Assembly (NCBI GenBank): GCA_903827955.1 | Contig: CAIKKJ010000158.1 | Location: 1 to 38,982, forward strand | Reading direction: 5' to 3' | DNA length: 38,982 bases | DNA from: an uncultured Verrucomicrobia subdivision 3 bacterium | Lineage (GTDB): Bacteria; Verrucomicrobiota; Verrucomicrobiia; Limisphaerales; UBA11358 | In this document: piece by piece, positions 5,861 to 38,100 of the stretch | Layout of the letters: the number at the start of each line of letters is the position of its first letter | Position numbering within the stretch: position 1 is the first letter of the stretch | Program-made: the position numbers and the translations under genes | The notes under the pieces: generated by a model | The model's database searches: none | Told to the model about the DNA's origin: nothing | Seen by the model: the letters and a program-made list of their open reading frames with translations, nothing else

Positions 5861-8800
5861 ATGAAAACAAAATTGAACTTAACGGATTGGCTGTCTTACC
5901 GGAATCAGTTGCGGTCTTTGACTCTTATCTCGATGTTTGGTGCGGCGATGTTGTGCGGCACGACTCTTCGCGCCAACGATGTCAGTTGGACCGGCGGCGG
6001 CACCGGCTTAAGTTCGGACTGGCGGACGGGAGCGAACTGGAGTTCCAGCGTCGTGCCTGGGAGTTCAGACAACGCAGTATTCAACGGTGGCAGCGTCACG
6101 AACAATTCCCTGATTGACATGGCGGCCGCCGGCGGAACGCAACAGGTTGGTTCCATTTCGGTCGTCTCCGGCCAGACGGTCAATGTGATTATCGGCAACT
6201 CTTCCACCACGACCAGTGGCACACTTGTCCTGAACGGCGTCGGTGGCGTTCTCCTATCCGACAGTGCCGGCGCGGGCGGCGAGTTGATCATTGAAAACTT
6301 CAACCAGCCGCTTGCGCTCGGGCTGGCTGCATCCGGGGCCATCTATGCCAGCAGCTCCACCGGAAACCCGGTGGCATCCACGGATCCGGGGCGGGTGGAA
6401 ATTTATAGTTCGATTATTGATGTCGGTGGCTCGCGCAGCATCACTTTAACCGGACCGGGCAACGTCTATCTGCGTGGTGTGAACACGTATTCTGGCAATA
6501 CGACCATCCAAAATGGCGCGTTGGAACTGGATGCAACGGGCACGGTTGGCAATGGTGTAGGGACGATTTATCTTTCCGGCGGCAACATCCAATCCGGCGC
6601 GAGCCGCAACGGCTACAGCTCTGGTCCTTGGATTCCCAATCCCATCGTGCTCACAGCGGATGCGCATATTTTCAACTCGGCCAGCACGGCCAATTCGACG
6701 CGTAATATTCCGTTTTCGGGAAGTTTAACGGGCAGCGGTGGTTCCTTGATTATCTGCAATCCCACCGGCGTCAGTGGAAATAGTTTTGTTCCCCGTTTTT
6801 CAGGTGCCTTTACCAACAGCTTGCCCGTGGTTTTGGGAGATACTTCTGGAACCGCTTTTTCTGATAATACTTTGGATTTTAGTGCCATTGATTTGTGCAA
6901 CGCGGTTACCAACGGCATGCAGGTTTGGAACGGAGTATTTTCCGGTCCCGGTAACCTCCGCCGTTCCAGCCCGGTCCTGAGCTTTTCTGCCATGCCCGGC
7001 GGCGTCGCGATTTTAACCGGGAACAATACTTTTTCCGGCGGTTCATCCATCAATGACGGCACCTTGTTTGCCAACAACTCCACCGGCTCCGCTCTCGGTT
7101 CCGGCTTGGTCGGAGTTTACAGTCACGGAACACTCGCCGGCAATGGCACCATTCTCGCGGCCGTTACCAACGGCCTCGGCGGAACAATCCAGCCGGGCTC
7201 AACCGCCACCAATGTTGGCAAGCTTACGGTCAATAGTCTGTTATTTGGCCCGTCTGGCAATTACACGTGGCAAATTTCATCGGTCACGGGAACCGCAGGC
7301 ACGGCGTGGGATTTGATCAACGCCAGCAGCGCCGGTTGGACGGATAACGGCAACAGCACCAATAAAAATGTCATTCATTTGAAATCACTGGGCGTGCCGA
7401 CCGGCTGGAACAATGCAACCGCTTACACCTGGCTGATCATCTCGAATAACCCGGCCAACACCACTGGATTTAATGCGGCCAACTGGTCGGTCGACCCTAC
7501 CTATTTTGGCGCAACCGCCGCCGGTGCCTTCAGCGTGACCACGGACGGCAACGGTTCGCTCGACTTGGTTTACACACCGCTCGCCAACACGCAACCGGTG
7601 GCGCACATGGTGATTCTGGCACCGGGTGAAACCCTGACGCCTGGCAGCGCGCCGGGCAAAACCGGTTCACCCACCGCGCAACGTTCGACGGTTGGTTATT
7701 CCGTGACCGTGAAAGCTTTGGACGCCAGTTACAATCTCTGCTCGAATTCTTTTGATACCGTGACACTCACTTCCAGTGCCGCGGGCGACACGTTGCCTGC
7801 GATAGCACCGCTTGTGAACGGGAGCATCACTTTCTCGCTGGTGAATAACACCGTGGGTAACATCACCGTGACGGCCACCAACGTGACCGAAGGCATCGCT
7901 GTGCCTACCGGCAGTTCGATTGTGCCGGTGAATATCAATACTTCCACGACGACCTTGGCCAGTTCGGTCAATCCGGCCCAGCCGGGGGTGCCCATTTCAT
8001 TGTCGGCCACGGTTTCTTCCACTGCGGCCACGCGCACCGGGACGGTGACCTTCATGAAAAATGGCACAAATGTTTTGGGCACCGCGACGCTTGCTGGCAA
8101 CTCCGCATCCATCACGCTTTCCGGCGGCACGGGAACAAATTCCATCACTGCCATTTACAGCGGCGACGCGAACAACACCAGCAGCACCAACTCGCCGGCG
8201 TTGACACAAGTCATCAATCCCAGCGGTGCCGGTGTGGTGCAGGCCGGAGTGGCGGCATTGATGCAGGACGGACAGGATTACGCCGCCGCGACGAGCACGC
8301 CGATTACTGGTCGTGGACCGTGGGTATGCGGCGGCGGCACTGCATCTTCTTCCTTCATTAAAATTATCGCCGGCGACTTGTCTGGTGCCACCAGCCCGGA
8401 CATCCGGCCATTGCCGGCGGCAGGAGTTAATACTAATCATTTGCAAATTTCCAAGGCCGGCACGAACAGCCGTTGGTATTTCCGCAGCATGACCAACAGC
8501 GCCACATCCGGCTCGGTATATTTTTCGTTTCTCTTGAACGTGTCAGTGAATCCAACCACTGCGGATGAGTTCATGGGAACGATGATTTCCAGCACCATAA
8601 CCAATACGCCGGCACCGACGGATCCGCTGTCGTTCCACGCGCGGGTGGGCGCGGACGGAACGCATTTTGACTTGGGTGTCCAACGATTAAACGGAGAAAC
8701 GGCCTGGACGGGCGACTTGGCGGACAACACGACCTATCTGGTAGTTTTGAAATATACTTTCGGTTCAGCCGCAGGCTGCAGCATCTATGTCAACCCGATT

Positions 8801-9568
8801 CCCGGCGGCACGGAACCCACACCCAATGCGACTGCTTTTTCGGACGGAGTTACGGCTGAACCAGCCAACATCGGTCAGGTATTATTTTATGAAGCCGGCT
8901 CGGCGGTCACTTACCTTACTTCTGGAACATATAACTACGACGTGATACGGGTGGACAACAATTGGGCGACCGTCACTCCTTCCGTCAACGGAGCTACGTT
9001 GAATGCGATGAGTCTGGCATTCAGCCCGGCCTCGCAGAGCATTCAGGTTAATCAGAAATCGTCGTTGATCACCGTCACCTTGCAACAGAGCAACCTGACA
9101 TTTAATGCTACCGCTGACACCTTGGTAAACTTGAGCTCCACCTCTGGTGGCGGGACATTTCTGTCTGGTGTCAATGGCACCAACGTCATCAATAGTGTCA
9201 CCATCAGCAACGGCACGAGCTCGGCGTCTTTTTATTACAAGGACAGCAACGCCGGCACTCCGACCATCACTGGAGTCAGCGGCTTGCTGGCCACGGCCAC
9301 GCAGTCGGAAACAGTCACCAATCCGCCGGCGAGTTCAGCGCCGGGATTCCCGCCTGGCAGCATCACCCGTTTGTCCAGTGGTAACATCTCTTTGAGCGTT
9401 ACCGGTGCGGTCGGTGTGGCTTGGTCACTGCATGCCACCAACAATCTGACTATCCCCAGGCCTTGGCCCACCATCCAATCCGGCACTATTGGCAGCAGTC
9501 CGTTTACAATCAATGACCTGGTCGCCACGAATTATCCGAACCGGTTCTACTATTTCAGCGCCCCGTAA
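5861..9568 (+). CDS. Large secreted PATR / Ig-like repeat protein
   Basis: The start is the ATG at 5861 (1235 residues); earlier in-frame starts fall inside the pseudopilin gene. The N-terminus has a long leader with a hydrophobic core at about 22-38. Autotransporter-associated beta-strand repeats lie at about 194-233 (VYLRGVNTYSGNTTIQNGAL) and 382-416 (AILTGNNTFSGGSSINDGTL). Then come a PGE...APGKTG repeat at about 580-690, an Ig-like domain at about 690-785 (TGTVTFMKNGT), a beta-sandwich-like module opening ALMQDGQDYAA at about 797-1043, a further beta domain at 1047-1157, and a C-terminal module ending NRFYYFSAP. No 12-strand autotransporter barrel is visible, so secretion must use another route. 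Residues from about 578 to 1158 are paralogous to the giant protein at 32149. Probable surface or matrix protein; ligand unknown. Confidence 0.82.
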   Translation: MKTKLNLTDWLSYRNQLRSLTLISMFGAAMLCGTTLRANDVSWTGGGTGLSSDWRTGANWSSSVVPGSSDNAVFNGGSVTNNSLIDMAAAGGTQQVGSISVVSGQTVNVIIGNSSTTTSGTLVLNGVGGVLLSDSAGAGGELIIENFNQPLALGLAASGAIYASSSTGNPVASTDPGRVEIYSSIIDVGGSRSITLTGPGNVYLRGVNTYSGNTTIQNGALELDATGTVGNGVGTIYLSGGNIQSGASRNGYSSGPWIPNPIVLTADAHIFNSASTANSTRNIPFSGSLTGSGGSLIICNPTGVSGNSFVPRFSGAFTNSLPVVLGDTSGTAFSDNTLDFSAIDLCNAVTNGMQVWNGVFSGPGNLRRSSPVLSFSAMPGGVAILTGNNTFSGGSSINDGTLFANNSTGSALGSGLVGVYSHGTLAGNGTILAAVTNGLGGTIQPGSTATNVGKLTVNSLLFGPSGNYTWQISSVTGTAGTAWDLINASSAGWTDNGNSTNKNVIHLKSLGVPTGWNNATAYTWLIISNNPANTTGFNAANWSVDPTYFGATAAGAFSVTTDGNGSLDLVYTPLANTQPVAHMVILAPGETLTPGSAPGKTGSPTAQRSTVGYSVTVKALDASYNLCSNSFDTVTLTSSAAGDTLPAIAPLVNGSITFSLVNNTVGNITVTATNVTEGIAVPTGSSIVPVNINTSTTTLASSVNPAQPGVPISLSATVSSTAATRTGTVTFMKNGTNVLGTATLAGNSASITLSGGTGTNSITAIYSGDANNTSSTNSPALTQVINPSGAGVVQAGVAALMQDGQDYAAATSTPITGRGPWVCGGGTASSSFIKIIAGDLSGATSPDIRPLPAAGVNTNHLQISKAGTNSRWYFRSMTNSATSGSVYFSFLLNVSVNPTTADEFMGTMISSTITNTPAPTDPLSFHARVGADGTHFDLGVQRLNGETAWTGDLADNTTYLVVLKYTFGSAAGCSIYVNPIPGGTEPTPNATAFSDGVTAEPANIGQVLFYEAGSAVTYLTSGTYNYDVIRVDNNWATVTPSVNGATLNAMSLAFSPASQSIQVNQKSSLITVTLQQSNLTFNATADTLVNLSSTSGGGTFLSGVNGTNVINSVTISNGTSSASFYYKDSNAGTPTITGVSGLLATATQSETVTNPPASSAPGFPPGSITRLSSGNISLSVTGAVGVAWSLHATNNLTIPRPWPTIQSGTIGSSPFTINDLVATNYPNRFYYFSAP
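7594..9336 (+). repeat. Block paralogous to 34408-36120
   Basis: Reading the two translations side by side shows the same domain order and long stretches of identity. They share PGE...APGKTGSP, GYSVTV-ALDA-YN, SSTTTLASS-NPA, a TGTVTF Ig-like core, GQDYAA, GSVYFSFL, DPL-FHAR, THFDLG, GTYNYDV or GTYQYDV, and SVTISNGTS-A-FYY. This is one contiguous shared segment of roughly 570 residues between two genes 26 kb apart. It indicates duplication or recombination between surface-protein genes. Confidence 0.8.
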
Positions 9569-9686
9569 GACGTTTGATTTGGTGAACAGGAAAGCCCTCA
9601 ACATCGGAGCGCTTTCATCGGCGATTGGGCGAGTAAAACAATATCTGTCATTTTCGATTGTGACGCCCGGTCTAGATTTTCCGCCT

Positions 9687-11880: not shown

Positions 11881-14034
11881 TTACAACGCTTGAAGGCGGT
11901 AAAACTTTCTGAAGCTGCCGGCGGAATCGTTGAACGGTGCGTTGGTGTAGTAAAAAGTCAGCGGTGAGTTGGAGTTGGTGAATGTCAGCAACGGGTTCCA
12001 ATTCAGCAGATTTGAACTCCATTGCAACTGGTATTTTCTCCCGACGATGGTCGTCATGCCCGCCGAGAAATTCTGGGCTGCAATCGATGGCGCGGAAAAA
12101 ACCGGCCACGTCACGCCGACGGGATAACTTACGGAATGGCCGTAATACTTGATGCCGTTCGGAAATGCGCCGGCGTGCTGGTTGAAGCCGGTGGAGACGT
12201 TCGTGTCGCCAAAATTATATGTGCCGGACTGGCATTCCTCGGGGCCGGTATTGTTTACGTCCGTGTCGGTGCGGTTGCTGGCGCGCAGGATGGCGATGTG
12301 GCCGGAGCCGCTGGAGGATTTATACGAGGCCATCACGAGCACGCCGGCATTAGCCTGGTGCTGTGCGTTAGTCATGCCGATGATGGGAAACCAGCCGGCG
12401 CTGTTGGTCACGAACCAGTCGGCCTGATGATTGGCCAGGTCGACATCCGACGCATCCGGCGGACGCAGGAGATAGATTCCAAGCAGTTCTGCCGCTGACG
12501 ACGTGAAAGCGCTGCAATGCGTCGCAGTGCCAATGGTTTTGTTTGACCCGCTGCCGCCCGTCGCGCCGGTCAGCCAGTTCACGCTAGAACCACCGATCCA
12601 ATAATTAGTCACTTGGAGCGAATCCAAAAACACATTTAACGCCGCGCCGTTGGCGGAAATGCCATTGGAGACGATGTTGACGGTGCCGCTCAATCCGATT
12701 TTCGCATGTGTGTCTGTGCAAATCAGCAAGGCAGATTCAAGCGAACTGTCGAGGGCCGAGTAGCTAAACGTGCCCGCGCTCAGAGTCACATTCGTATTGT
12801 CAAAGATTCCATTTGCATCGGTGTCGAAACGGACATTGCCGGTGCTGCTGCTGAGATTCAAGACCGACGAGCTGTCTGTTGTGACGACGTTGCCGAACAC
12901 GTCCACGGCATAGCCCGAAGCAGCGAATGGCTGGCCTGCATACGCCAAGGCGGGTGCGGTCAAGATGTAATGGTCAGTCGCTGCGGGAACGATGTTGAAA
13001 TTACTGCTGGTCGTTGAATTGTATCCGCCGACTGAAGCGGTCAGCGAATAAATTCCCGCGGTGTTAATTACCAGATTATTGAACACCGCCGCGCCGCCCG
13101 CGCCGGTGCTCACCGTGGTTGTGCCGCTGGCAAACGCGCCGCCGTTCACACTAACGCTGACGGGCACATTGTTGGACGGCAGATTGGAGCCGAAGCCGTC
13201 CTGCAATTGAACGGTCACGGCGGCAAGTGAATTGCCGGCGGTTGAGTTGGATGGCTGAACGGAAAAAATCAGCGAGTTGCTTGTGGTGCCGGCCGGCGTG
13301 ACTTCGCCCCAAGTCGTCGCCACCCGAAATCGGCTGATGAGAAAAGTTCCCGCTGTGGAACTGCCCGAACGCAAATAGACATAGCTCAAGTCGGGCACGA
13401 TGGTCGTCGTCGTGCTGCTCGCATCGGGCGATGCCGGTTCAGTTCCGCCGGGTGAAGGGTTGATGTAAAGCGACGCGAGGCCGCTCGCAAAAATATATTT
13501 CATCACCACGAAACAAGGCACGTTGGTCGGCAGCGTGTTCGCGATGTAAGTGGTCGTGCCGGCCTTCGCACGAACGCCGAGTTTGAAACCGGTGCCGGAA
13601 CTGTTGTCAATCAAGTCGAGCGGGTCGGCGGACGAGCCGCCCGGCGGGGCATTCGTGTTTTGCAGCAGTCCGGCGATGTAATAATTGCCCGGCTTGGACA
13701 AAAAATTCATCACGAATGAGAAATAGACCACGCCGCTGTTTGCGGTCGTATCCAGCGGGCGGTAACTCACCGCTGTTGTGCCGGGCAACACTTCCGCGCA
13801 TTGGGCCGCTGGTGACAGGTCGGCGAGATTGGAATACGACAAGCTTGTGTTGGTGACGACGATCAGGCTGGTCGGGCTGGTCCATGGCGAATCATTGCCA
13901 AGAATACCAGCGGAATAGTTTAATGGTTCCTGCATCAGCAGCACCGCCCTGGCCATCGGCTGTGTGAAAAAAGACATAGCCAAGCAAACCAGGACATTAA
14001 AAAAAACTTGCGGTGGTTGTCGGTAAGCGAACAT
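11881..14034 (-). CDS. Secreted multidomain protein: beta-sandwich-like module, Ig-like domains, Cys/His papain-like domain
   Basis: The protein has 717 residues. The signal peptide ends near residue 30 (ARA). Residues about 31-250 are the module also found in three other proteins here (LMQEPLNYSA, GVVYFSFVMN, SLYINPSPGGTEP, WGEVTPA). Residues about 255-350 and 352-455 are Ig-like (AAVTVQLQDGFG; GNVVTTDSSSVLNLSS). Residues about 465-635 carry THCSAF with Cys507, GHIAIL with His579 and GPE with Glu599, homologous to the stand-alone protein at 989-1708. Residues 650-717 form the C-terminal module (YQLQWSSNLLNWN...FYRLQAL). It is probably an exported hydrolase with binding domains. Its stop codon directly abuts the stop of the converging gene. 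Copy C of the 19-nt element is 47 bases upstream. Confidence 0.75.
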   Translation of the reverse strand: MFAYRQPPQVFFNVLVCLAMSFFTQPMARAVLLMQEPLNYSAGILGNDSPWTSPTSLIVVTNTSLSYSNLADLSPAAQCAEVLPGTTAVSYRPLDTTANSGVVYFSFVMNFLSKPGNYYIAGLLQNTNAPPGGSSADPLDLIDNSSGTGFKLGVRAKAGTTTYIANTLPTNVPCFVVMKYIFASGLASLYINPSPGGTEPASPDASSTTTTIVPDLSYVYLRSGSSTAGTFLISRFRVATTWGEVTPAGTTSNSLIFSVQPSNSTAGNSLAAVTVQLQDGFGSNLPSNNVPVSVSVNGGAFASGTTTVSTGAGGAAVFNNLVINTAGIYSLTASVGGYNSTTSSNFNIVPAATDHYILTAPALAYAGQPFAASGYAVDVFGNVVTTDSSSVLNLSSSTGNVRFDTDANGIFDNTNVTLSAGTFSYSALDSSLESALLICTDTHAKIGLSGTVNIVSNGISANGAALNVFLDSLQVTNYWIGGSSVNWLTGATGGSGSNKTIGTATHCSAFTSSAAELLGIYLLRPPDASDVDLANHQADWFVTNSAGWFPIIGMTNAQHQANAGVLVMASYKSSSGSGHIAILRASNRTDTDVNNTGPEECQSGTYNFGDTNVSTGFNQHAGAFPNGIKYYGHSVSYPVGVTWPVFSAPSIAAQNFSAGMTTIVGRKYQLQWSSNLLNWNPLLTFTNSNSPLTFYYTNAPFNDSAGSFRKFYRLQAL

Positions 14035-21032: not shown

Positions 21033-21091
21033 CAATTGGCTTTGTTTTCAAACTTTTAACGGCACGATGTTTGTGAAGTTTATTAAAAGCT

Positions 21092-21718: not shown

Positions 21719-21720
21719 AT

Positions 21721-23652
21721 TTATTTCAGCGGAATGTAGCAGACGTTGCCCGTTAGCATCATCAGAATGAAAATCAAGCACATCACCATCGGGCCGAGAT
21801 AATTTCTGCCCGTCAGGCGGAAGAAAAGCCGGTTGAGGATGGGCAGCAAAAACATCATCGGCGTGACGCCCAACAGCAGGTTTGTGTAAAGCCATTCTTG
21901 CGTCCAATACACGGCGCCCGTCGCCGCAAGATGGACGTATTGGATGGCTAGAATCAGCATTAGGCCAACGGAATTTCCCAGCGCGCCGATCAGCATTCCG
22001 GTGCGTTCGCTTTGACCTTCAAAACGTCCGCCAGCATTTACGCGCACCGAGTTGGCAAAATAAAAGATGAAAAACAGCGGCAAATATTCCAGCGCCACAA
22101 TGAGCATCTTTGGCGGAAACGAAGCGGTCGCCGAAATAAATGTGAAGCGGAAATCAGTGTGAAAAACCCCATACGAAAAAAATAACAGCGCGTAAAATGA
22201 CAGGAACACAACCAACGCGAGTATGAATGTTTTTATCAAGTTTCCAAAACCGATTTTCAATCCCCACATCTCCGGTTTGACACCATTTTTTTTGCCGAAC
22301 AGCCGCCAGGTCACGGAAAAAGTCAGCAGCCCGATGAGGCCGTTGGCGACCGCCCACAACAATATGGCGTTGTTGATGCGCTGCGGAAAGAACCAGGTTT
22401 GCACACCGGCGGTGGCTTGTGGAAACAAAACGGCGGTCGCCCGCGCCATGGGAATGAAAAGGAAACAGGCGACGAGCGCGGAAAAAGCGAACGTGGACCA
22501 AAAAATAATTTTACCGGTGCGCTGCGGCGCGGGCAAAGCCGGCGGCACGGGACGAACCAGCGATTTGAAAAATGGGTGCTGGAGCAACAGCCGCGTGAAT
22601 GGAACCAGAAATAAAAAGCCGCCGGCCAAAGAGAGCAGTGTGAAAAATTCTTTCCACGGCCAGATTTGATTTGAGGCTGGAATGCCCGGAGTCAGTCCAA
22701 ACGCCAGCGTAAAAAAATCAATCATTTTGGCGACGTGTCTCGGATCGTAAGGCATCAGCGGGTGGATGTTCCGTGTATTGTGAACCACGCGAAGCGTCCG
22801 GTTGGTGAGGTCGCCGTAAAGTTTTCCAATTTGAAGCTCGGAAATTTTTTTATCCTCATTGAAGATTGAATTTACAAACCGCAACGACTCGGCGGCGTCG
22901 CTCATGTGGGCGTTGCCCTTTTCCGTGCGGAACGCGCCCTCGTCGTAGTAGGCGTAGTCGAGTCCTGCGTTCACATTAAGGTCGGTGAGCGTGCTGTTGG
23001 TCAGCGTCAGCACGTAGCCGCCGATGAAGATCGCGGAAATTTTGTTTTGCGCTTTGGCGGCTTCGGCTTCGGCTTCGGTGACAATTTTTCCGCCGTCGGA
23101 ATCTTTCCGTTCGGCTTGTCGCAAAGCCTTGGCCTGTCGCCCGCCGAAACGCGCCGCCGATTGAAGCACCGCATTGCCGCCCGCCGAATAGCCTGCCGCG
23201 CCGATGTGCGACTTGATGACGTAATTAAAATTGGTTGCTTCGTAAACATATTCCGCCATCGGGATGACGCCGTAGCCTTCCATCGTGGCCGAACGCTTTT
23301 GCGTCGTGGAACTGGACGCACCCTGATTGTAAGGATCAATGGTGACGACGGCGACACCGCGGCGTGCAAGTTCGATGGAATAGCTGGTCATCGTCTCCTT
23401 GCTGCGCTCAAACCCAGGGCAGACCACGACGAGCGGCACGGGGTTCTCTGCGGTCGCAGTTTTCGGTCGAAACAAATCTGCTTTGATCCACTGGCTGTTT
23501 TCCGTTGGCAGCGTGAAGCCGGTGACTTGGACACTTCCAAAATCGGTTTGCACCAGCCAGGCACCGCAGCCGCCGACAAGGATGAGTGCGAGTGCAATCC
23601 ACAGCCAAAAAAATGAACGTTTTTCTGAATGGTTGTCGTTTGATGAAATCAT
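21721..23652 (-). CDS. Membrane-bound alpha/beta hydrolase with C-terminal polytopic domain
   Basis: The ATG at 23652 (MISSNDN, 643 residues) lies 20 bases after the SGNH-hydrolase gene; the open frame extends further upstream only as a shadow of that gene. There is one N-terminal membrane helix at about 13-34. An alpha/beta hydrolase domain follows (about 40-310), with VVVCPGF, nucleophile elbow GYSAGG (Ser156) and a candidate catalytic histidine in VVHNTRNIHP (291 or 297). A charged Ala/Glu/Lys-rich insertion lies at about 175-203. Residues 336-640 form eight predicted helices. The soluble domain probably faces outwards. I know no named family with this exact architecture. It is the last gene of the run 30320-21721 and may be an esterase or lipase coupled to a membrane module. 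Confidence 0.75.
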   Translation of the reverse strand: MISSNDNHSEKRSFFWLWIALALILVGGCGAWLVQTDFGSVQVTGFTLPTENSQWIKADLFRPKTATAENPVPLVVVCPGFERSKETMTSYSIELARRGVAVVTIDPYNQGASSSTTQKRSATMEGYGVIPMAEYVYEATNFNYVIKSHIGAAGYSAGGNAVLQSAARFGGRQAKALRQAERKDSDGGKIVTEAEAEAAKAQNKISAIFIGGYVLTLTNSTLTDLNVNAGLDYAYYDEGAFRTEKGNAHMSDAAESLRFVNSIFNEDKKISELQIGKLYGDLTNRTLRVVHNTRNIHPLMPYDPRHVAKMIDFFTLAFGLTPGIPASNQIWPWKEFFTLLSLAGGFLFLVPFTRLLLQHPFFKSLVRPVPPALPAPQRTGKIIFWSTFAFSALVACFLFIPMARATAVLFPQATAGVQTWFFPQRINNAILLWAVANGLIGLLTFSVTWRLFGKKNGVKPEMWGLKIGFGNLIKTFILALVVFLSFYALLFFSYGVFHTDFRFTFISATASFPPKMLIVALEYLPLFFIFYFANSVRVNAGGRFEGQSERTGMLIGALGNSVGLMLILAIQYVHLAATGAVYWTQEWLYTNLLLGVTPMMFLLPILNRLFFRLTGRNYLGPMVMCLIFILMMLTGNVCYIPLK

Positions 23653-23672
23653 CGCGTTGAAAATATAAAAAA

Positions 23673-26327
23673 TTAGGGCAAATAAACGGCGCGGTAAAAA
23701 ACAGTTCCGCTGGTTCCCGACGAGAAACTGAACGGTGCGTTGTTGGTTTGCACGGAATTCCAGTTCAGCAAATTCGTCGAAGTTTGAACCGCGTAACGGC
23801 TGCCGGTGATTCCCGAAATGTTGAATTGAAAATTTCCGCTGATCAATGCCGGCGAAGTCAGCGCGGGAGCAAAATTCACGGCGGTCGCAACCACGGAAGT
23901 TGCGGTGAGGCTCGTGACCAGCCCGATTCCGTTCGCGCCGACGACAGGATTGGTGATGCTGGTGAAGTTGCCGGCGACCGAAGCGGCCGTGACCAGGTTG
24001 AATTGCTGGCCGGGGGCGGGCTGAAATCCGTTCGCCAGAGTGACGTTCAAAGTTCCCGCCAGTGTCACCGTTCCGCTCACCGCCAGCGCGTTGGATGAAC
24101 TGCCGAGCCGGATTGCCAATGTGGCATTTGCGCCGTTGGAAAGGTTGCCGTAAAGATTGGCGGTGGTCGTGTTGGTCAGCAACAAGGTGCCGCCGGACAA
24201 TAAATTTAACGGTTGTGCGACGGTGCCGAATTGATTGAAACCCAACTGGCCACCTTGGAAAATGAAAACAGCGTTGCCTGCGCCGGGCAGGATTTGCATC
24301 GCGTAAAGCGTTCCATTTGACAGGTTGTATTGGCCGGTGCTGTTGGTTTGTTGCGCCAGAGTTAGTGCCCCAATGACGTTTAATGTGCCGGCGTTGTGTT
24401 GCACAAAGCCTTTGCCTTCCTTGCCAACAATCATCGAGCCGGCAACCGAGAGAGTGCCTCCGGTCGAGAAGTAAAGCCTGCCCTGGCCCGCCTGATTGTA
24501 GTTCGTGTCGAGAGTTCCCAGCCAAAGGTTGCTGATAGCTCCGACATTCGTGTTCACCTTGACCGACGGCGACGGTTTTCCGGAAGCCCCGGAGATGACG
24601 GTGGTGTTGGTCGGCGCGGTGGCCGGGTTCGTATAATTTTGCCAGTAGTAAGCCCAGTAAAAATGATTTGTGCCCAGGTTATACGTGTCGGGTGCAAACG
24701 GGTCTTGCAACACTGATTGGGCGGCGATTTGCTGCAGCAGCGCCGCGCTGGCGGTGTCAATGTCGGAGTGATAGGTGCTGCCCTCAGGGCTGCGGCCGAA
24801 AATTGAACTGTAAAACACACACGCGACCAGATACGCGCCAAAATTATTCGGATGACGGTCGCCGAGCGAGTCGTTCAAAATGTAGAGATTGAGGCTGGGT
24901 TGCGTTGCGCGGACGGTGGCCCAAGCCAGGCCAATCGGCGAGATGGCCGCGCCCAGCTGGTTTGCAATCATGGAATAACCTTCCCGCAAGGCAATGTTCA
25001 TGTTCAGAAAGCTGCCGAAGCCGCCGTCGCAGTTGGTCTTGTATTGTGCCGGAAAATCATAACTGCCGCAGTTGCCGCTGGTGTCGCCGTTGATGTAGCC
25101 CCACGTTTCGTAAAACATCGTCCGCTCATTGTGATTGGTGATCATTGTGTTCAACGTGCGGCAGGCCGGAAACATGGAGTTGTTCCGCGGTGACGGCAAG
25201 GATGGTTCCTGACTCTGGTCCTGCAAAATCACCAGGTCATAATTGCCGGTGTTGATGTCATTGGTGGCGGTCGGATCGGTGGCGAACTGGTAGAGATACC
25301 AGCTGGAATTGGCAATGGTGGTGTTGGAGGCCGCGTCACCAAAACTATGCGCCAGATTTATCAGGATGGCTGGAATGTTGTTAGAATACGAGGTGCTGAT
25401 GCCCAACAGGCTGTCGCCCAAAAAGAGCAGCCGCATCGCCGGGGCGTTGTTCGTCGGAGGAGGATTGTTCGTAACCGTTCCGGAGCTATTCGTCGGGGTC
25501 ACGTTAGCCCAATTTGCATCCACCCGCATGACATCATAGCTGCAGGTTAGCGAAGTGTTGGAAGAACTTTCCCAAAAGAGAAGAGTTCCCAAGTTGACTG
25601 GTTCGGCGGTCCCGCCCTTCGTCGCGGTTGCGCTGGCCGTGGGTTGTGCCGCGCCCGGGACCGGGTTGATGAAAAGCTGGCACGGTTGCCCAGCTCCAAA
25701 TGTATATTGCAAGACGACAAGATAATCCGTGCTGTCGGCGAGATTTGTGGACGACCAGTTCACTGTGCCGGCGAGACTTTGGATTCCCAAATTGTAATGA
25801 CTCGTATCGGCCACTTTTGAGTGAAGCGTGAGCGGATCATTGCCCGACGGATTGGCCGGGTAGCTCCCGCCGGCGACGCTGGGGATCAGTTCGCCCAGGA
25901 TCTCATCACTCGTTGTGGGATTCGCTGATACATTCATCAGGAATGAGAAATATACCGAACCATTGGTGAACGAAGTTCCGATACTACGATAGTAAGTTCT
26001 GGAACTGGAGCCTGCCTTTTTAATCTGGAGATTCGCCTCCGGGTAGGTGGCGTTCGTTAACCCCCCCAGCGCCGGCGTGGTCGTGCCGGTCAGATCGCCC
26101 AGATAAATGCCGATCGCCGTGGTTGAGGCTGCCGCCGCTCCGCCGCTGCTGGCGAGTAACCATGGACCTCGGCCGGTGACCGGTGTCGAACTAAGCGCGG
26201 CATAATCCTGGCCGTCTTGCATCAAAGCCTGCGCGTGCGCCACGCAATAAAACAGCGAGGTGCAAACAACGCAAAATAAAATCATTCGCGTGCCGAAAAG
26301 TTTTTTTTGCTGAGGCTTTGGCAACAT
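23673..26327 (-). CDS. Secreted SGNH hydrolase with N-terminal beta-sandwich-like module and PATR-like tail
   Basis: The protein has 884 residues. A basic leader is followed by a hydrophobic stretch ending AHA-QA at about 33. Residues about 35-278 are the shared module (ALMQDGQDYAA, TGRGPW, GSVYFSFLMN, SYDVMRVDANWANVTP). Residues about 298-540 form an SGNH/GDSL-type hydrolase: LLFLGDSLLG with nucleophile Ser306, LVILQDQSQEP, and GDRHPNNFGAYL with His492. The acid residue sits two rather than three positions before His, so the catalytic acid is uncertain. Residues 560-790 are beta-rich PATR-like sequence (GKGFVQHNAGTLNV, LSGGTLLLTN). The end is the C-terminal module (YAVQTSTNLLNWN...FYRAVYLP). 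It likely removes acyl groups from an external polymer. It lies in a run of five minus-strand genes. Confidence 0.78.
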   Translation of the reverse strand: MLPKPQQKKLFGTRMILFCVVCTSLFYCVAHAQALMQDGQDYAALSSTPVTGRGPWLLASSGGAAAASTTAIGIYLGDLTGTTTPALGGLTNATYPEANLQIKKAGSSSRTYYRSIGTSFTNGSVYFSFLMNVSANPTTSDEILGELIPSVAGGSYPANPSGNDPLTLHSKVADTSHYNLGIQSLAGTVNWSSTNLADSTDYLVVLQYTFGAGQPCQLFINPVPGAAQPTASATATKGGTAEPVNLGTLLFWESSSNTSLTCSYDVMRVDANWANVTPTNSSGTVTNNPPPTNNAPAMRLLFLGDSLLGISTSYSNNIPAILINLAHSFGDAASNTTIANSSWYLYQFATDPTATNDINTGNYDLVILQDQSQEPSLPSPRNNSMFPACRTLNTMITNHNERTMFYETWGYINGDTSGNCGSYDFPAQYKTNCDGGFGSFLNMNIALREGYSMIANQLGAAISPIGLAWATVRATQPSLNLYILNDSLGDRHPNNFGAYLVACVFYSSIFGRSPEGSTYHSDIDTASAALLQQIAAQSVLQDPFAPDTYNLGTNHFYWAYYWQNYTNPATAPTNTTVISGASGKPSPSVKVNTNVGAISNLWLGTLDTNYNQAGQGRLYFSTGGTLSVAGSMIVGKEGKGFVQHNAGTLNVIGALTLAQQTNSTGQYNLSNGTLYAMQILPGAGNAVFIFQGGQLGFNQFGTVAQPLNLLSGGTLLLTNTTTANLYGNLSNGANATLAIRLGSSSNALAVSGTVTLAGTLNVTLANGFQPAPGQQFNLVTAASVAGNFTSITNPVVGANGIGLVTSLTATSVVATAVNFAPALTSPALISGNFQFNISGITGSRYAVQTSTNLLNWNSVQTNNAPFSFSSGTSGTVFYRAVYLP

Positions 26328-26351
26328 ACTGATACGAGAAGCAGCAAAATC

Positions 26352-27257
26352 TTAACGGGTTTTCACGACAGAAGCATTGTTCGTAGAAAACAATGCCTCC
26401 TGCACTGCTTTCGCGGCGAGCATGGCCTTGCCGTCGTGGGCGATGCCGGGCACTTCGACCTTGCGCCAGTTAAACTGCCAGCCGTGAGTTTGCGCCAGTT
26501 TTTGCGCGGCCTCAAAACAGTTTCTTCCGCGTTCGAGTCGGAATGCGCCCTGTAACTCGGCGGCGGCGGAGCGGTCGAGTTCGGGATGATGCGGATCATT
26601 GTCGTCGAGGCCGAGGCACAACGTCAGCGGCGCGTTGAAGTAACGTTGCAAGGCCGAATCGTTGCTCAATTCCTCCGGCAGCCCGCCAAAACCGTAGCCG
26701 AATTTCCAGTCGCGGCGTGGAAACAAATCTGAGCCGGGGTTGCACGCGACGATGCGTTTGGCTTCCATCGGATACAGCGCGGCGAGCCGCATCAGAAATT
26801 GGCCGCCGCCGGAGTGGCCAATGAAATAGTAGGGCAGGGCGGGTTCGTGCTCGGCTTGTCGCACCGCTTCAACAATCGCGGGCAGCCGGGCGTAAGTCCA
26901 GTTTTCGCGCGATTGGACAACGCCTTTTTTCATTACGCCGCCGCGCTGATACTCTTCGTTGTCATATTGGTTCGTGCTGAACAGCGGTGCGGCAATAATC
27001 AAGCCGTAACGGTTTGCTAGCGGGATGCAGTTGCGGCAGTAATCCTCGGCGTTGCGCAGCAGGCCGTGAAAAACCATGACGAGCGGACCGCCATGATAAT
27101 TTGGGGGTTTGTAAGTAAAAACCGTGATTGCGTTTGTGCCGCTGCCGACTTCCATCCGGCTCAAGCCTTGCGGAATCGGCGCGGCATGGACGCAAAACAG
27201 CATCGCTTGAATAGCGAGCAAAACTCTCAATGCGGTTGGGAAAAAATAATTTCTCAT
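26352..27257 (-). CDS. Secreted alpha/beta hydrolase, esterase/PHB-depolymerase-like
   Basis: The ATG at 27257 (MRNYFF, 301 residues) overlaps the stop of the dctA-like gene as ATGA, suggesting translational coupling; the longer frame is only a shadow of that gene. A signal peptide covers residues 1-25. VMVFHG supplies the oxyanion region near 61-65, GHSGGG carries the nucleophile Ser149, and GIAHDG carries His274. An Asp in LGLDDND (about 218-221) is the likely acid. The layout fits secreted esterases of the depolymerase/feruloyl-esterase group. A 24-base gap leads to the SGNH-hydrolase gene. Substrate unknown; the context suggests an ester of an organic acid. Confidence 0.8.
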   Translation of the reverse strand: MRNYFFPTALRVLLAIQAMLFCVHAAPIPQGLSRMEVGSGTNAITVFTYKPPNYHGGPLVMVFHGLLRNAEDYCRNCIPLANRYGLIIAAPLFSTNQYDNEEYQRGGVMKKGVVQSRENWTYARLPAIVEAVRQAEHEPALPYYFIGHSGGGQFLMRLAALYPMEAKRIVACNPGSDLFPRRDWKFGYGFGGLPEELSNDSALQRYFNAPLTLCLGLDDNDPHHPELDRSAAAELQGAFRLERGRNCFEAAQKLAQTHGWQFNWRKVEVPGIAHDGKAMLAAKAVQEALFSTNNASVVKTR

Positions 27258-28531
27258 AAATTCGAGCGGCCATTGTTTGCCAGCCGAAAATTTTTGTTCA
27301 GCGTCTCGGCGGTGATTTCTTTTTCCCAGCGGCTGATGACCACCGTGGCGACGCCGTTGCCGATGAGGTTGGTGAACGAGCGGCACTGGCTCATCAACCG
27401 GTCAATGCCGACGAGCAGCGCGAGCGATTCAATCGGCACGCTTGGCACGGCGGTGAGCGTCGCGGCGAGGCAAACAAAACCTGCCCCGGTCACGCCGCTC
27501 GCGCCTTTTGAGGTAATCATCGCCACGAGCAGCAGACTGATTTGATGCGGCAAATCGAGCGGCGTGTTCGTGGCTTGCGCGAGAAAAACCGCCGCCATCG
27601 CCATGTAAATGTTCGTGCCGTCGAGATTGAAACTGTAGCCGGTCGGAATCACCAGGCCGACAGTGGATTCGGCGCAACCAAGGCGCTTCATTTTTTGAAT
27701 GATGCCTGGCAGCGCGGTTTCCGATGAGCTGGTGCCAAGAACTAAAATTAATTCCTCCTTGATGAACGCGAGAAATCGGAAAATGGAAAAGCCGCTGAAC
27801 CACGTAATCGTTCCCAGCACAATGACAACAAACATCGCGGCCGTGATATAGAATCCGGCGATCAACTGAAACAGATAACCCAGCGAACGCATGCCGTTGC
27901 TCCCGACAGTGAAAGCCATCGCGCCGAACACGCCGATGGGCGCGAACATGACGACAAGGCGCATGATGCCAAAGAAAATTTCCGAGCCGGATTCAATGAC
28001 GCGCAGCGCCGGCTTGCCGCGTTCGCCCAGGCCTTGCAGCGCAAATGCAACCAGCGCGGCCACGACCAGCACCTGCAACAAATCGCCGGAAACAAACGCG
28101 CCAAAAAAAGTTTTCGGAATGAGGTTCATCAAAAAATCCACCGTATTCAACGCATGACCGCTGCCGGTGTAATTTTTCGCGATGTTCGGATCGAGCGTGG
28201 CCGGGTCAATGTTGAAGCCCGCGCCGGGCTTGAGCACGTTCACGACCACGAGGCCGATGACCAGCGCGAGCGTGGAGACGGCTTCAAAATACAGCAGTGT
28301 CTTGCCGCCGATGCGCCCGAGTTTTTTCAGGTCGCCCATCGAGGCGATGCCGTGGACGACGGTGCAGAAAATAATCGGGCCGATGAGCATCTTCACCAGA
28401 TTGATGAAGGCGTCGCCGAGCGGCTTCATTTTCACCGCCGCGTCCGGCTGAAAAAATCCCAGCGCAATGCCCAGCAGCATCGCGGCGAAAACCACGACGT
28501 AAAGCGGCGGCCAGGCGCGTGTAGTTTTCAT
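27254..28531 (-). CDS. dctA: C4-dicarboxylate transporter, DctA-like
   Basis: The protein has 425 residues. It is an SDF-family inner-membrane symporter for succinate, fumarate and malate. Seen: VKMLIGPIIFCTVVHGI near the N-terminus, the LGTSSSETALP loop (Ser268-270), VIPTGYSFNLDGTNIYM (294-310), AQATNTPLDL and the late GIDRLMSQCRSFTNLIGNG. These are much closer to DctA than to glutamate carriers. It is located 13 bases after PEP carboxykinase and overlaps the following esterase gene by 4 bases. Uptake of C4 acids followed by oxaloacetate to PEP conversion is a coherent gluconeogenic unit. Confidence 0.9.
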   Translation of the reverse strand: MKTTRAWPPLYVVVFAAMLLGIALGFFQPDAAVKMKPLGDAFINLVKMLIGPIIFCTVVHGIASMGDLKKLGRIGGKTLLYFEAVSTLALVIGLVVVNVLKPGAGFNIDPATLDPNIAKNYTGSGHALNTVDFLMNLIPKTFFGAFVSGDLLQVLVVAALVAFALQGLGERGKPALRVIESGSEIFFGIMRLVVMFAPIGVFGAMAFTVGSNGMRSLGYLFQLIAGFYITAAMFVVIVLGTITWFSGFSIFRFLAFIKEELILVLGTSSSETALPGIIQKMKRLGCAESTVGLVIPTGYSFNLDGTNIYMAMAAVFLAQATNTPLDLPHQISLLLVAMITSKGASGVTGAGFVCLAATLTAVPSVPIESLALLVGIDRLMSQCRSFTNLIGNGVATVVISRWEKEITAETLNKNFRLANNGRSNL

Positions 28532-31892: not shown

Positions 31893-32033
31893 CCAACAGA
31901 TTTGTGAAGCGTCTATTGTAGCCAGATATCAGCCTTATTTCAAAGAGATGTTCCTGACGCGCGTAGTTTGGTGCAAAGTTTTGCTATTACTGCGCGGAAG
32001 GATTTTGAATGTGCTAGATTATTTAGATTCGGA

Positions 32034-32093
32034 ATGAAACTGACGACAAAAGACATTCAGAACAAGCCCGATTCAGAATTGCGTTTTCCCTGA
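32034..32093 (+). CDS. Possible 19-residue upstream ORF
   Basis: ATG at 32034 opens MKLTTKDIQNKPDSELRFP and stops at TGA 32091-32093, 55 bases before the giant gene. It follows AT-rich promoter-like sequence. There is no conserved leader-peptide signature (no run of one amino acid, no attenuator hairpin that I can see). It may be a chance open frame. Confidence 0.2.
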   Translation: MKLTTKDIQNKPDSELRFP

Positions 32094-32148
32094 CCCAGCC
32101 ACCGCACACCGCGCCTCCTTGCCTTAACCCAAAACCAAAATCCCAATT

Positions 32149-35100
32149 ATGAAAGCCAACAAAGTCAAAGTCATCAAACGGTTCTTGTGCCCGAAGACAG
32201 GTTTTGTGGTGAGATGGCACGCATTGCTGGCCACTGCATTGCTGGCTTGGGTTGCCCAACCAGCCCTGGCAAGTTTTCCGAATAACGCCGGCAGAATTTG
32301 GGTTGGTGTTGGGGTTGACACTTCATTTTCCGCCGCCTCGAGTTCGAGCTGGATTCCGGGAAGCGTGCCGATCCAAGCCAACGACCTCTGGATCGGCACC
32401 AGCACGCTTGCTGGGGGAACGAACGTGGTGAGCTGTGGCACGGCGACCACTAAATCACTCATGGCCTGCCATGGCATGACTTTTAATAATAATTTCAACA
32501 CAACAAACTCAATTACCATCGGCAGCACCGGAAATTTTTCAATCGGGGTTAGCTCGGGCACGAACGTCCCCCCGCTCCCGTCATACATTGAAACCTTGAT
32601 GACCAGCGGCACGGTTCGTTTTCAAACCTATGACCCTACGAACGTAAATTTGGTCGGCAATCTCACCCTTCGTCTGGGAGCCAATCTGGTATTTGCAACG
32701 AGTGCGGGCAGCACAATTCAAGTCGCGTGCCTTATCGAGCAAACTAACTTCGCAGGTGCGGGGAATTATTCTGTTCCATACTCCATCAGCAAGATCAACC
32801 CCGGCACTTTGAGTTTGTTGAACAGCAATAGTTTTACCGGCGGTGTGACACTTAACGCCGGCACGCTGAATGTGGGAACCAACTCCGCACTCGGTGCTGC
32901 GTCTGGCACGTTCACCATCGCGGGCGGAACGCTGGACAACGTGAGCGGCTCGGCCCTGACCTTGCTCAATTATCCGGTCGCGTGGAACGGTGATTTTACT
33001 TTTACCGGAACCTCCAGTTTGAACTTGGGCACTGGCGCGGTGACTTTGAACAACGCGCGGCAGGTAACAGTCTCGGCCAACACGCTGACTGTCGGCGGAA
33101 TTGTCGGACCCTCCACCGGCGGTTTTGGATTGACGAAGAGCGGCAATGGCACGCTGGCGCTCAACGCTGCTGAAACTTACAACGGTAACACCACCATCAA
33201 TGCGGGCACGCTGACGTTAGGCGCCAGCGCATCGATTGCGAACAGCCCGAACATCACCGCCAATGGCATTTTAGATGTTTCCGCCGTCAGTGGTTTTACT
33301 TTGGGCGGCAGCCAGAACCTGCTGGGTTCCGGCGCAGTGAACGGCAGCGTGGCCACCACTACCGGCTCGAAAATTTTTCCAGGCACGGACGGCACGACTG
33401 GCACTTTGACCCTGTCCAATTCGCTCTCACTGGCCACCGACGTGACTTGCAATTTTGACCTCGGTTCCACGGCAACGGGACCGAATGACCAACTGGTGGT
33501 CAACGGCTCCGGCTCCGGGGCGCTCACGGTGAACAACAATTCCTTCGTCATCAAAGCCGCATCCACGCTTGACCTTGCCGTTGACTACACGCTGGTCTCG
33601 GTTCCCAACGGAACCATCTCCGGCACGTTCAATTCCACCCCGACTTGGTCGGGCACCCCGCCGGCCAACTTTTTGAGTTATTCGATTATCACCAGTGCTC
33701 ATGCCGTAACGTTGCACTACACGCCCGCCGTCGTCGGGGTGGATCACTATGTAGTGACGCCTTCGGTCAGTTCCACGAATGCTGGAAAAGTATTCACGGC
33801 GGTGGTGCAGGCTTACAACAACGTCAATGCGCCCATCACCGACAACAGCGTGGATGGAACCTTTGTGGTGATGAGCAGTTCCGGCTCCGCGCAGTTTGAC
33901 GCAAACGGCGACGGCACCTATGGCGACAACATCAAAACTCTGACGAACGGCACCTTTACCATCAACGTAACTGACCTGAAGGCGGAAAACGTCACGTTGA
34001 CCGCCAGCACGGGACTGAACACCGGAACCAGCGCCAGCGTCAGCATCACGCCGGGCACACTGACTCAATTGCAACTGTTGTTGCCCGGCGAAACTGCCAC
34101 GCCGGGCGTTGCGCCAGGCAAAACCGGCGCGCCAACCACACGCACGGCGGGCAGCGGTTTCAGCGTGACGGTGAACGCCGTGGACGCGAACTGGAACGTC
34201 GTTTCCACCAGCGACACAATTCATCTTTCAGCGGCGAACGATGCGAATGCGGTTTTGCCGGTAAACACAGCCTTGAGCGCGGGCACGGTAACGTTGGGAG
34301 TGACCAACATTTTGGCGGGCAGCGGTCGCACGCTCACGGCCACGGACGTCTCCAACGGCGGCATCACCGCGAGCACCAGCCCGGCTTACACGGTCATTCC
34401 GGGCACGGTGGCGAAACTGGTGATTGTAACTCCCGGCGAGAGCTTCACCTTGGGCGCGGCTCCGGGCAAGACTGGGTCGCCGAGCGCGCAGAATTCCACG
34501 GTTGGTTATTCGGTGACGGTGGACGCGCTGGATGCGCAATATAATTTGGTCACGAATTCCACGGACACCATTGGCGTGACTTCAAGTTCGGGCGGCGACA
34601 CGTTGCCCGCCAATGCCGCGCTCGTCGGCGGAACCAAAACTTTTGCGCTGACGAACAACACCGTCGGCAGCACCACGCTGACCGCCACCAATGTGACGCA
34701 AGGCCCCGCGGTGGCAACCGGAAGTTCGACGGTGACGGTCAACATCAACAGCACCACGACGGCGCTGGCGAGTTCCATCAATCCGGCGAATGCGGGTCAA
34801 TCATTCACGCTGACGGCAACCGTGTCCGGTGCGGGCAAGCGCACAGGAACGGTGACGTTCAAGAACGGCACGGCCGTTTTGGGCACTTCGCCACTTTCTG
34901 CGAATGCCGCAACGTTCACGCTGTCTGGTGGCGTAGGGACTTATTCGCTCACCGCAGTCTATAACGGCGATGCCAACAACACCGGTAGCACTTCGAGTGC
35001 GTTGTCACAGGCGATACAGACCGGCAGCGCGGTCGTGGGAGCGGCGGCGTTGATGGAAGAGGGCCAGGATTACGCCGCTTCAGCATCGACTGCGAATCCT

Positions 35101-38100
35101 CCGGTCGGTCGCGGGCCGTGGGGAATCGGCGGCGGCAGCGGCTCGACTTCATTCATTGGAATTTACGCGGGAGATTTGTCGGGAGCAACGAGCCCTGACA
35201 TCAAGGCCTTGCCGAACACGGTCAATCCGGCGGCTTTGTTGCAGGTGGCCAAAGCCACAAGTGCCGGTCGCTATTATTATCGCAACATGAGCAACAGCGT
35301 CACCTCCGGCTCGGTGTATTTTTCATTCCTGATGAAGGTGACGGTGAACCCGACGTTGACCGATGAAATCATGGGGTCAGTGCTGGCCTTGAACGGTAAT
35401 ACTCAACCCGCCGCGACCGACCCCCTGACGTTCCATGCGCGCAAAGGTGCTGACACGACACATTTTGATTTGGGCATCGAACGTCTGAACGGCACCACTT
35501 CGTGGACGGGTGATCTGGCAGCCAACACCACTTATTTAATTGTGGTCAAATACACATTTGGTTCCGCTGCCAGTTGCAGTCTTTTTGTCAATCCCACACC
35601 CGGCGCCGCGGAGCCGTCCCCGACCGTCAGCGCAACTTCCGACGGCGTGACCGCCGAACCTGTGAACATCGGCGCAGTGTTGTTTTTTGAAAACTCAAGC
35701 CTGACTTCGGGAACATATCAATACGACGTGATGCGGGCGGACACCAGCTGGGCGACCGTAACGCCGTCAATCAACTCTTCCTCCGCGCTGGGTGCGGCGG
35801 CGTTGGCGCTTTCCCCCGGACCGCAATCATTGATTATCAATTCCAATTCTGCATTGATGACCGTCACTCTGTTGGATCAAAGCAACAACGTGTTCACCGC
35901 TACGTCGGACACGACGGTCAATTTAAGCTCCAGCTCCAGCTATGGCGCCTTTCTTTCCGGAGCGGACGGCACGACCGTCATCGGCAGTGTGACCATCAGC
36001 AACGGAACCAGTGCGGCCACTTTTTACTACAATGACGCCAGCGCGGGAAATCCGACCATCACCGCTTCAAGTGGTTTGCTGACGCCGGCTTCACAAGCCG
36101 AAAGTGTGAATCCCCCGCCTGGCCTGATTGGTCATCTCACCATCACGCCCTCGACGAGTTCAACTTCTGCGGGAACAGTATTCACCGCCACCGTGCAGGC
36201 ATACGACACTAACAATGTGGCGATAACTGACAGCCGGGCGGATGGATTGTTAGTGACACTAACCAGTTCCGGCCTGGCGCAGTTTGATGCCAATGGCGAT
36301 GCAACGTATGGGGACAATGTCAAGGCGCTCACCAACGGCACGCTCACCATCAATGCACGGGATTTGAAAGCAGAAAGCGTAACCCTTTCCGCCAGCCTCG
36401 GAACGTTTAGCGCTTCCAGCTCAAGTGTCAGCATCAGTGCTGGCTCGGTGGCAAAATTGCAATTGCTGTTGCCGGGGGAAACGGCCACGCCCGGTGTCTC
36501 GCCCGGCACGACCGGAACGCCGTCAGCGCGCACAGCCGGTTCGGGTTACAGCATCACCGTCAACGCGGTGGATGCGAACTGGAACGTTGTTGGGTCGAGC
36601 GATACGGTGCACATCACCGCTGCGAATGACGCTAACGTCATTCTGCCCGCGAACACGGCGCTGTCTGCGGGAACGGCCACATTGTCCGTGACAAACATCA
36701 TCGCCGGCAGCGGACGCACGCTCACAGCGACCGATGTTTCCAACGGCGGAATCACGGCCAGCACCAGCCCGTCGTATAACGTGGTTGCCGGCGCGATTGC
36801 CAGATTGGTTCTGATGGCACCCGGCGAATCGCCCACTTACAACGTGGCCCCCGGCAAGACCGGCACGGCGAGCCATCAACTCCAAACCGGATCGTTCACC
36901 CTGACGGTCAATGCGATGGATGCGAATTACAATCTTGTGACCACGGCTTCGGACACGGTGCAAATTAGTTCGACGGACGGTGGCGCTACTTTGCCGGCCA
37001 ACGCCGCGCTCTCCGGCGGCATCGGGTCGTTCAGCATCACGCACGCCGCATCAGGTTCAGTCACCGACACCGCAACGGATGTGTCCAACGGCGGCGTGAC
37101 GACTGGGACAACCGCTGTGCCAGTGGACATCATTCCACGCTTCCGCACGGCAACCAGCGGCAACTGGACGAGCACGAGCACTTGGGAATATTCGACCGAC
37201 GCCGGCTCGACTTGGAATCCGGCGACCGGCACACCAAGTTCCGCTACGACCGCTCTCACGGAATTGACCAGTGGCAAAACGGTGACAGTGGCTGCAAATG
37301 TTTCCATCAATCGCACCACGGTTGACGCGGGTGCTGCCGTGTCCGTGCCTTCGGGAATTACTCTCTCGGTGGTCACTGGTGCGGGAACTGATTTGGATGT
37401 CTTCGGTGTCATCACCAACGCCGGCGTTGCGACAAATGTCAGTGCCACGGTAAAAATGGAAAGCGGTTCCGTCTACTACCACAATCAGGACGGCGGTTCG
37501 TTGCTGGTGGCCAACTGGAACGTCAATTCCACCTGCGATGTTATCGGCTGGGTTTCGGCCACGACGGTTTCGGCTGGAACACAAATTCGCCAAAAATTTG
37601 GCAACTTCACTTGGAACAGCCCAAGTCAGATCAGTGCCATGAGTTTCGGTTCCAGTGTGCCGACTAATTTTGCCGGCAACTTCAACGTGGTTTCCACAGG
37701 CAGCGGAACGCTGGCATTGTGTATCGGCTCCACGGTTAATTTGGAAATCGGAGGCGACCTGAACATCAGTGGCGGCACACTTTATGGTTCCACTACCGGC
37801 AGCGGCACGGAGGTGGTCAATGTTGGCGGTAACGTGAATCTCTCGTCGGGAATCTTGAACTTGGAAACCAGTGTGAGCGGCACGGAGCTGGTGACCTGGA
37901 ACCTTTCCGGCGATCTCAATGTCACCGGCGGCACGTTGACGGCAGCAACGACCAATGTGGTGGCGGCGCCAACCATCAACTTTGTGAAAGCTGGGACACA
38001 AAAGTTGGTTATCAGTGGTGGCGGTCAGATCGTTTCAGCCAACACCATCAGCTGGATGGTGACCAACGGCGCGACGCTGGACTTGGGAGCGAATATTATC

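Follow-up and report, generated by a model that had tools for sequence, protein, structure and literature searches.

A recurrent secreted module of about 235 residues with a predicted concanavalin A-like fold in an uncultured Verrucomicrobia subdivision 3 bacterium

Module copies and the proteins that carry them

The DNA analysed here, referred to as the window, is a stretch of 38,982 nucleotides that makes up the whole of contig CAIKKJ010000158.1 in the 3.86 Mb, 213-contig, 95%-complete genome of an uncultured Verrucomicrobia subdivision 3 bacterium (GCA_903827955.1). A module of about 235 residues occurs in it four times, each time in an open frame and at the positions given by an original prediction that had been made from the sequence alone. 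Copy m1 (8243–8989, + strand) covers residues 852–1100 of the open reading frame (ORF) 5690–9568, or residues 795–1043 counted from the ATG at 5861. Copy m4 (35035–35775, +) covers residues 963–1209 of the ORF that starts at 32149. Copies m3 (25485–26240, −) and m2 (13285–13953, −) cover residues 30–281 of an SGNH hydrolase-like protein and residues 28–250 of a Cys/His protein, respectively, and by eye both lie directly behind a signal peptide. The predicted residue ranges agree with these, provided that numbering of the first gene begins at ATG 5861. BLASTP comparisons between the modules gave 64% identity for m1 and m4 (E = 7e-104), 50% for m1 and m3 (E = 4e-80) and 30% over 251 columns for m1 and m2 (E = 2.5e-19), the weakest pair being m3 and m2 (31%, E about 2e-16). 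The four copies are homologous, and with four open frames and 30–64% identity the proposed recurrence in four secreted proteins is real. The most divergent copy is m2: the predicted landmark motifs are present with small changes in m1, m3 and m4; in m2, GRGPW and the Cys preceding SLYINP are missing and the DPL-FHAR element is weak.

Two of the carriers are secreted β-strand-repeat proteins. The first (5861–9568, +) consists of PATR-type repeats, a Big_3_5 domain (residues 757–841 of the ORF starting at 5690), m1 and a C-terminal tail ending in FYY; its PATR repeats score 25.7 bits in Pfam (cut-off 27) and lie above the cut-off of NCBIfam TIGR02601. The second (32149–38982, +) contains PATR repeats, a Big_3_5 domain (residues 875–956), m4 and more repeats. 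It had been thought to end near 36120, which was wrong, as the frame is open to the contig end.

The module-SGNH protein (23673–26327, −) comprises m3, an SGNH hydrolase part (24720–25436, −; residues about 298–536) that is DUF4886-like, β-strand repeats recognized by eye and a C-terminal tail ending in FYR. Its earlier assignment as an SGNH protein stands only in part: the window protein falls below the Pfam cut-off for DUF4886 (24.1 versus 26.7 bits), whereas a relative at locus L037 lies above it (33.1 bits). For the relative in genome G042 (L131:1846–5061), no family, DUF4886 included, was listed at E ≤ 1e-4. The window protein reads GDS at residues 304–306, where both relatives (L131:1846–5061 and L037:5806–8538) read GNS. 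All three have LGDRHPN as the His block, which differs from DxxH, the usual spacing of this block in SGNH hydrolases. The Cys/His protein (11881–14034, −) comprises m2, immunoglobulin (Ig)-like parts recognized by eye, the Cys/His part (12115–12618, −; about residues 473–640, with THCSAF at 505 and GHIAIL at 578) and a tail ending in FYR. The Cys/His part is papain/NlpC-like by eye only and had no Pfam match.

A C-terminal tail of about 60 residues (S-NLLNW … FYR) closes the window proteins ending at 23673 (−), 11881 (−) and 9568 (+). Between the SGNH and Cys/His proteins it is 40% identical (E = 2e-8); the similarity of the third tail to these two is not significant (E = 0.05 and 0.12). Several module ORFs elsewhere close with a similar tail by eye, and the tail is possibly a sorting or capping domain. 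A classical autotransporter was considered and rejected, since no Pfam Autotransporter barrel was found at E ≤ 0.001 across the genome.

Predicted fold, conservation and database status

Two AlphaFold2 models were calculated from the same ten sequences, with m1 first in model 1 and L040 (one of the numbered loci, L, with module relatives) first in model 2. Model 1 had a mean pLDDT of 67 and a pTM of 0.72, with residues 1–25 and 34–72 under 50; model 2 had a mean pLDDT of 65 and a pTM of 0.70, with residues 1–22 and 25–62 under 50. Both are predicted as the antiparallel β-sandwich, or jelly roll, of the concanavalin A-like (ConA-like) superfamily. The best Foldseek match of one model was the calreticulin lectin domain (E = 9e-6, TM 0.42), in a list also led by the Emp47p lectin domain, and that of the other was the alginate lyase Aly36B (E = 2e-5, TM about 0.4); ERGIC-53, CBM66 and polysaccharide lyase (PL) family 20 were among the rows. 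When Foldseek's own candidates were ranked with VIA-align, the sialidase BT_1020 (PDB entry 5mqr, chain residues 417–613) was top for both model 1 (Z = 12.6, 3.0 Å, 168 residues) and model 2 (Z = 14.6, 3.4 Å, 172 residues). The next places, many of them tied, were taken by trypanosomal and Akkermansia sialidase chains, PL20, Cip1, TtX122, glycoside hydrolase (GH) family 131, calreticulin and others. The BT_1020, sialidase, PL20, Cip1, TtX122, GH131 and calreticulin matches share the ConA-like fold. The matched part of BT_1020, which we take to be a lectin-like domain, differs from the module in lying within one large sialidase chain of 1082 residues, and sequence searches of the PDB gave no match to the module at E < 0.1 (best values 0.43 and 0.15), so that a solved homologue identified by sequence was rejected.

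A profile of 97 module sequences was compared using hhalign with ten Laminin_G_3 (PF13385) domains of the same genome. The alignment was collinear and scored 28.6, a value reached by none of 100 shuffles (maximum 17.0); the reversed comparison gave 13.8. For scale, Laminin_G_3 scored 34.7 against DUF1080 (PF06439), presumably its clan mate. Within the alignment, TTYLVVLKYTF of the module pairs with the W-HVAVTRN strand of L106, SIYVNP with LYQNG and YDVIRV with LDEFRIH. The module differs from Laminin_G_3, with which it shares the predicted jelly roll, in its length (about 235 versus 151 positions), in its own N-terminal motif (D/E)-x-F-x-Y-x-x-G and W27, and in being missed by PF13385. The ConA-like (LamG-type) β-sandwich class of the module is well supported as a prediction from the models, and the profile alignment is suggestive of remote kinship to Laminin_G_3. 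The earlier guess of a LamG-like sandwich holds by the two models and the profile comparison.

The module has no family in Pfam or NCBIfam: the 34 members searched gave only scattered weak single-member matches (best E = 0.003). The prediction that it belongs to no named family is borne out to this extent. PF13385 was absent among the seven weak Pfam families listed for the 34 members at E ≤ 0.1. Its cut-off was not reached by the module, and the ten PF13385 matches of the genome all lie outside the window. Word searches of the open-access literature gave no description that could be tied to the module. It is a family of known fold class without an entry in the databases searched.

Conservation was scored over 97 domains, after 13 loci had been dropped as duplicates together with exact repeats and matches covering fewer than 180 profile positions. 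Scoring was confined to the columns that m1 has; residues are given as consensus letters in m1 numbering. Conserved at more than 70% are F11, Y13, G16, G23, W27, L46, G90, Y93, S95, F96, L97, G145, T164, V168, N184, P185, P192, D233, R236, W241 and V244, a set made up mostly of hydrophobic residues, Gly and Pro. Position 9 holds an acid (Glu or Asp) in 92% of the domains, and the polar residues N65, D177, E191, E234, Y165 and Y171 are conserved at 50–70%. The conserved acids near both ends (D/E9 and D233) may form a structural metal site. In the printed columns, His is commonest in none and Lys reaches 0.49 at most.

These columns bear on whether the module could itself be an enzyme of the ConA class, either a polysaccharide lyase (PL7/PL20/PL36-like) or a GH131-like hydrolase. 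The fold lists place PL20 (Z = 13.0), GH131 (Z = 12.8), PL7 and PL36 structures near the module, and the polar residues Y13, Y93, D233 and R236 are well conserved and might meet in a groove. The lack of a conserved His and the low Lys content of the columns speak against catalysis, the only lyase model to match the module by itself is PF14099, and weakly (E = 0.024 in one of 34 members), and other catalytic domains occupy the same chain. We regard an enzymatic role as very unlikely.

Partner domains and proposed role

Partner domains were surveyed after 23 loci had been dropped (duplicates, fragments, those of the window itself, L042, and ORFs of fewer than 150 codons), which left 85 ORFs, 73 of which were scanned. 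Of the 12 others, L037, L039 and L041 were scanned from the match onward, L045, L087, L093, L103 and L104 singly, and the L009 gene as L131:1846–5061; L034, L035 and L040 were outside the survey. Many module ORFs are cut at the edges of the fetched stretches, and partners are therefore under-counted. Among the 25 of 44 Pfam families for which counts from the 73 ORFs were shown, sorting signals and repeat domains were frequent: Por_Secre_tail matched 13 ORFs, Ig_3 ten, I-set nine, fn3 nine and PEP-CTERM nine (four by NCBIfam TIGR02595). Chondroitinase B, Alginate_lyase, Pectate_lyase_4, SASA, CBM_6, CBM96 and GDSL lipase each occurred in one member, so the module is linked in one chain to glycan-active enzymes in a small minority of the 73. 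In ten proteins for which same-chain placement was recorded, Chondroitinase B was found in L071, pectate lyase 4 in L016 and an RHGA-like lyase in L070; CBM_3 occurs in a Hymenobacter module protein. On contig C191 of the same genome, a protein (L132:4980–8426) combines the module with TIG, fn3 and a di-haem oxidoreductase (DHOR); its gene stands directly before a GH5 cellulase gene, which is followed by a module-fn3-module gene. On contig C136 the module gene has a GH17 gene two genes upstream. Reuse with unrelated partners, as first proposed from the window, is supported by the domain scans.

The module also occurs almost alone. Fifteen short ORFs (272–350 codons) in the order and phylum samples end by eye in a PEP-CTERM-like tail (L017, L018, L025, L028, L033, L046, L047, L051, L052, L053, L055, L058, L061, L064 and L072). 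A signal-like N-terminus is present in 14 of them, L017 having none in frame. L087, L090 and L098 are counterparts with a tail like that of the type IX secretion system (T9SS).

From the fold class, the lyases and carbohydrate-binding modules (CBMs) in the same chain, the GH5 and GH17 genes nearby and the stand-alone anchored forms, we infer that the module is a ConA-like, non-catalytic dock that holds secreted cargo on an extracellular glycan; we consider this somewhat more probable than all other readings together. The module is exported and often placed immediately after the signal peptide or within a large surface protein; it would fold by itself as a jelly roll of about 235 residues. It would hold unrelated cargo, namely the SGNH hydrolase, the Cys/His hydrolase, β-strand-repeat proteins, polysaccharide lyases and the di-haem oxidoreductase, on a glycan that may be either the substrate or the cell's own matrix. 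Glycan binding itself is likely, to judge by the class of the fold, the domains that share its chains and the sorting signals; a lack of catalytic activity is likewise presumed.

Among known domains, CBM66 (PDB entry 4b1m) and other ConA-like CBMs resemble the module in fold and in modular use with glycan-active enzymes, but CBM66 has about 160 residues, and binding by the module is presumed. TtX122A/B (PDB entries 8q28, 8q29 and 8q2a) and Cip1 (PDB entry 3zyp) are similar in size and fold (Z = 10.4–12.7), with no sequence match to the module. The X122 domain sits with cytochrome domains in extracellular Teredinibacter proteins, according to PMC10916295, which may be compared with the module-DHOR protein. 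Its patch Arg118/His100/His213 contains His (PMC10916295) and appears to have no counterpart in the module, in which no His column is conserved.

Several results weigh against docking on a glycan. Both models are middling, the N-terminal third is poor with most of the first 60–70 residues below 50, and most TM-scores in the Foldseek lists lie between 0.3 and 0.5. The probability given by hhalign for Laminin_G_3 is only 24%. An unrelated fn3 control scored 16.3 against the module and also outscored its 60 shuffles (maximum 13.6), which shows that a score above shuffles is by itself not specific. DUF1080, tried as the nearest relative, was rejected because its score of 13.6 does not exceed that of its shuffles (maximum 15.8). 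Lyases, glucanases and structural domains are built on the ConA-like fold as well. Each glycan-active domain was found in only one of the 73 ORFs, and the commonest partners (sorting, Ig and fn3 domains) tell nothing of the ligand. In three comparisons the module was not seen to be more constrained than the remainder of its protein (0.70 versus 0.74/0.84, 0.73 versus 0.61 and 0.64 versus 0.63). The window neighbours, with an SDF symporter, a γ-glutamyltranspeptidase, an M20 peptidase and phosphoenolpyruvate carboxykinase, suggest organic or amino acids rather than sugars. Finally, the look-alike TtX122 is described in PMC10916295 as without clear activity and without clear plant-wall binding.

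The last point equally suits a ConA-like structural spacer or stalk that has no ligand and lends stability or length to surface proteins, as do the frequent company of Ig_3, I-set and fn3 and the hydrophobic or Gly/Pro nature of the most conserved residues. The short proteins tailed with PEP-CTERM-like or T9SS-like signals, of which the module is nearly the whole, disfavour this explanation because a pure spacer would have nothing to space in them. We consider it rather unlikely.

If the module docks on a glycan, the ligand may be the cell's own matrix because PEP-CTERM has been linked to exopolysaccharide: PMC1569441 reports that PEP-CTERM sorting is correlated with exopolysaccharide genes. 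In this special case of docking, stand-alone and fused forms would bind the exopolysaccharide or surface matrix of the cell and build a shared scaffold. The PEP-CTERM-like tails of the stand-alone forms and the several paralogues per genome (up to nine) on diverse cargo agree with it, but the T9SS-tailed members have no such known link, and chains with lyases of foreign polymers fit substrate binding equally well. We consider it unlikely. Just as doubtful is the broader possibility of a surface-retention system, present in two phyla, for which the module would be the common dock: stand-alone and fused copies would bind the same glycan class, and an exopolysaccharide-bound layer would gather degradative cargo; the module would then be a new CBM family.

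The short stand-alone proteins are directly testable for glycan binding. With a named model, many secreted proteins now called 'hypothetical' would gain an annotation, and an attached module would point to new lyases, esterases and oxidoreductases.

Distribution and genomic neighbourhood

A profile of the four window sequences found just the four window places in the 3.86 Mb genome at E ≤ 0.001. With a profile of 34 sequences, nine copies in eight frames were found; the five beyond the window are divergent and lie on other contigs (three in two frames on C191 and one each on C136 and C178). Four of the eight module frames fall within 27.6 kb, which occurred in 27 of 200,000 random-placement simulations (a test chosen after the fact); for this reason the window looks like a local expansion. 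In a FastTree phylogeny one clade (support 1.0) unites m1, m4 and m3 with five close relatives and leaves m2 outside.

The observation of four copies in one window is true, and the module is moreover a wide family found here in two phyla. Matches were obtained in 88 of 293 sampled genomes of the order (E ≤ 1e-3) and in 74 of 387 of the phylum (E ≤ 1e-5), the present genome being included in both, and in 48 of 247 genomes of the phylum of a Flavobacterium genome; copy numbers per genome in these three samples are lower bounds. The module is thus missing from the Pfam and NCBIfam copies searched, yet is present in 19–30% of the sampled genomes across three groups. A scan of genome contigs gave eight loci, of which three carry the titles Bacteroidetes, Chitinophagaceae and Flavobacterium. 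Among plasmid records, the L039 module as query gave four matches, all in Hymenobacter.

A profile scan of viral contigs revealed no relative of the module, and phage records gave one match (MT838529, locus L042, E = 7e-6). Besides the module protein, MT838529.1, which is labelled Bacteriophage sp., encodes by eye fructose-bisphosphatase, glycogen synthase and an IS30-type transposase. Because of these genes it is probably a mislabelled Bacteroidales fragment, and a phage origin of the module was rejected. One other frame (L015:1345–3321) runs from module and Ig domains into an FtsA-like end at a contig edge (Pfam FtsA below the cut-off), and probably represents a misjoined contig.

The SGNH copy lies in a recurrent locus (window 18063–28531, L131:231–11373 in genome G042 and L037:4625–10492 on CAMCWI010000028.1 in genome G176) that contains an SDF sodium:dicarboxylate symporter, the module-SGNH gene and an α/β hydrolase. 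The module-SGNH gene of the window is 61% identical to both counterparts. The symporter (27254–28531, −) shares 84% (G042) and 74% (G176) identity with the SDF proteins encoded near the SGNH gene in those genomes, and the α/β hydrolase frame (21721–24525, −) is 60% (G042) and 69% (G176) identical. The listed hydrolase frame overlaps the end of the SGNH gene, and its true start is probably further downstream; its Pfam matches are DLH/PETase/FrsA-like and weak in the window copy. A Reg_prop/Y_Y_Y/HisKA_3 kinase (18063–21032, +; 48% to G042) and a LuxR-type response regulator (21092–21718, +; 65% to G042) complete the window locus, and neither was seen among the L037 proteins scanned (part of the L037 frames). 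From its gene content, the locus perhaps serves sensing, hydrolysis and uptake of an ester whose acid is imported.

Elsewhere in the window, a calpain-family protease gene is found at 1813–2937 and an N_methyl pilin-like gene at 4981–5793; on C191, too, a pilin-like N_methyl gene comes after the module genes.

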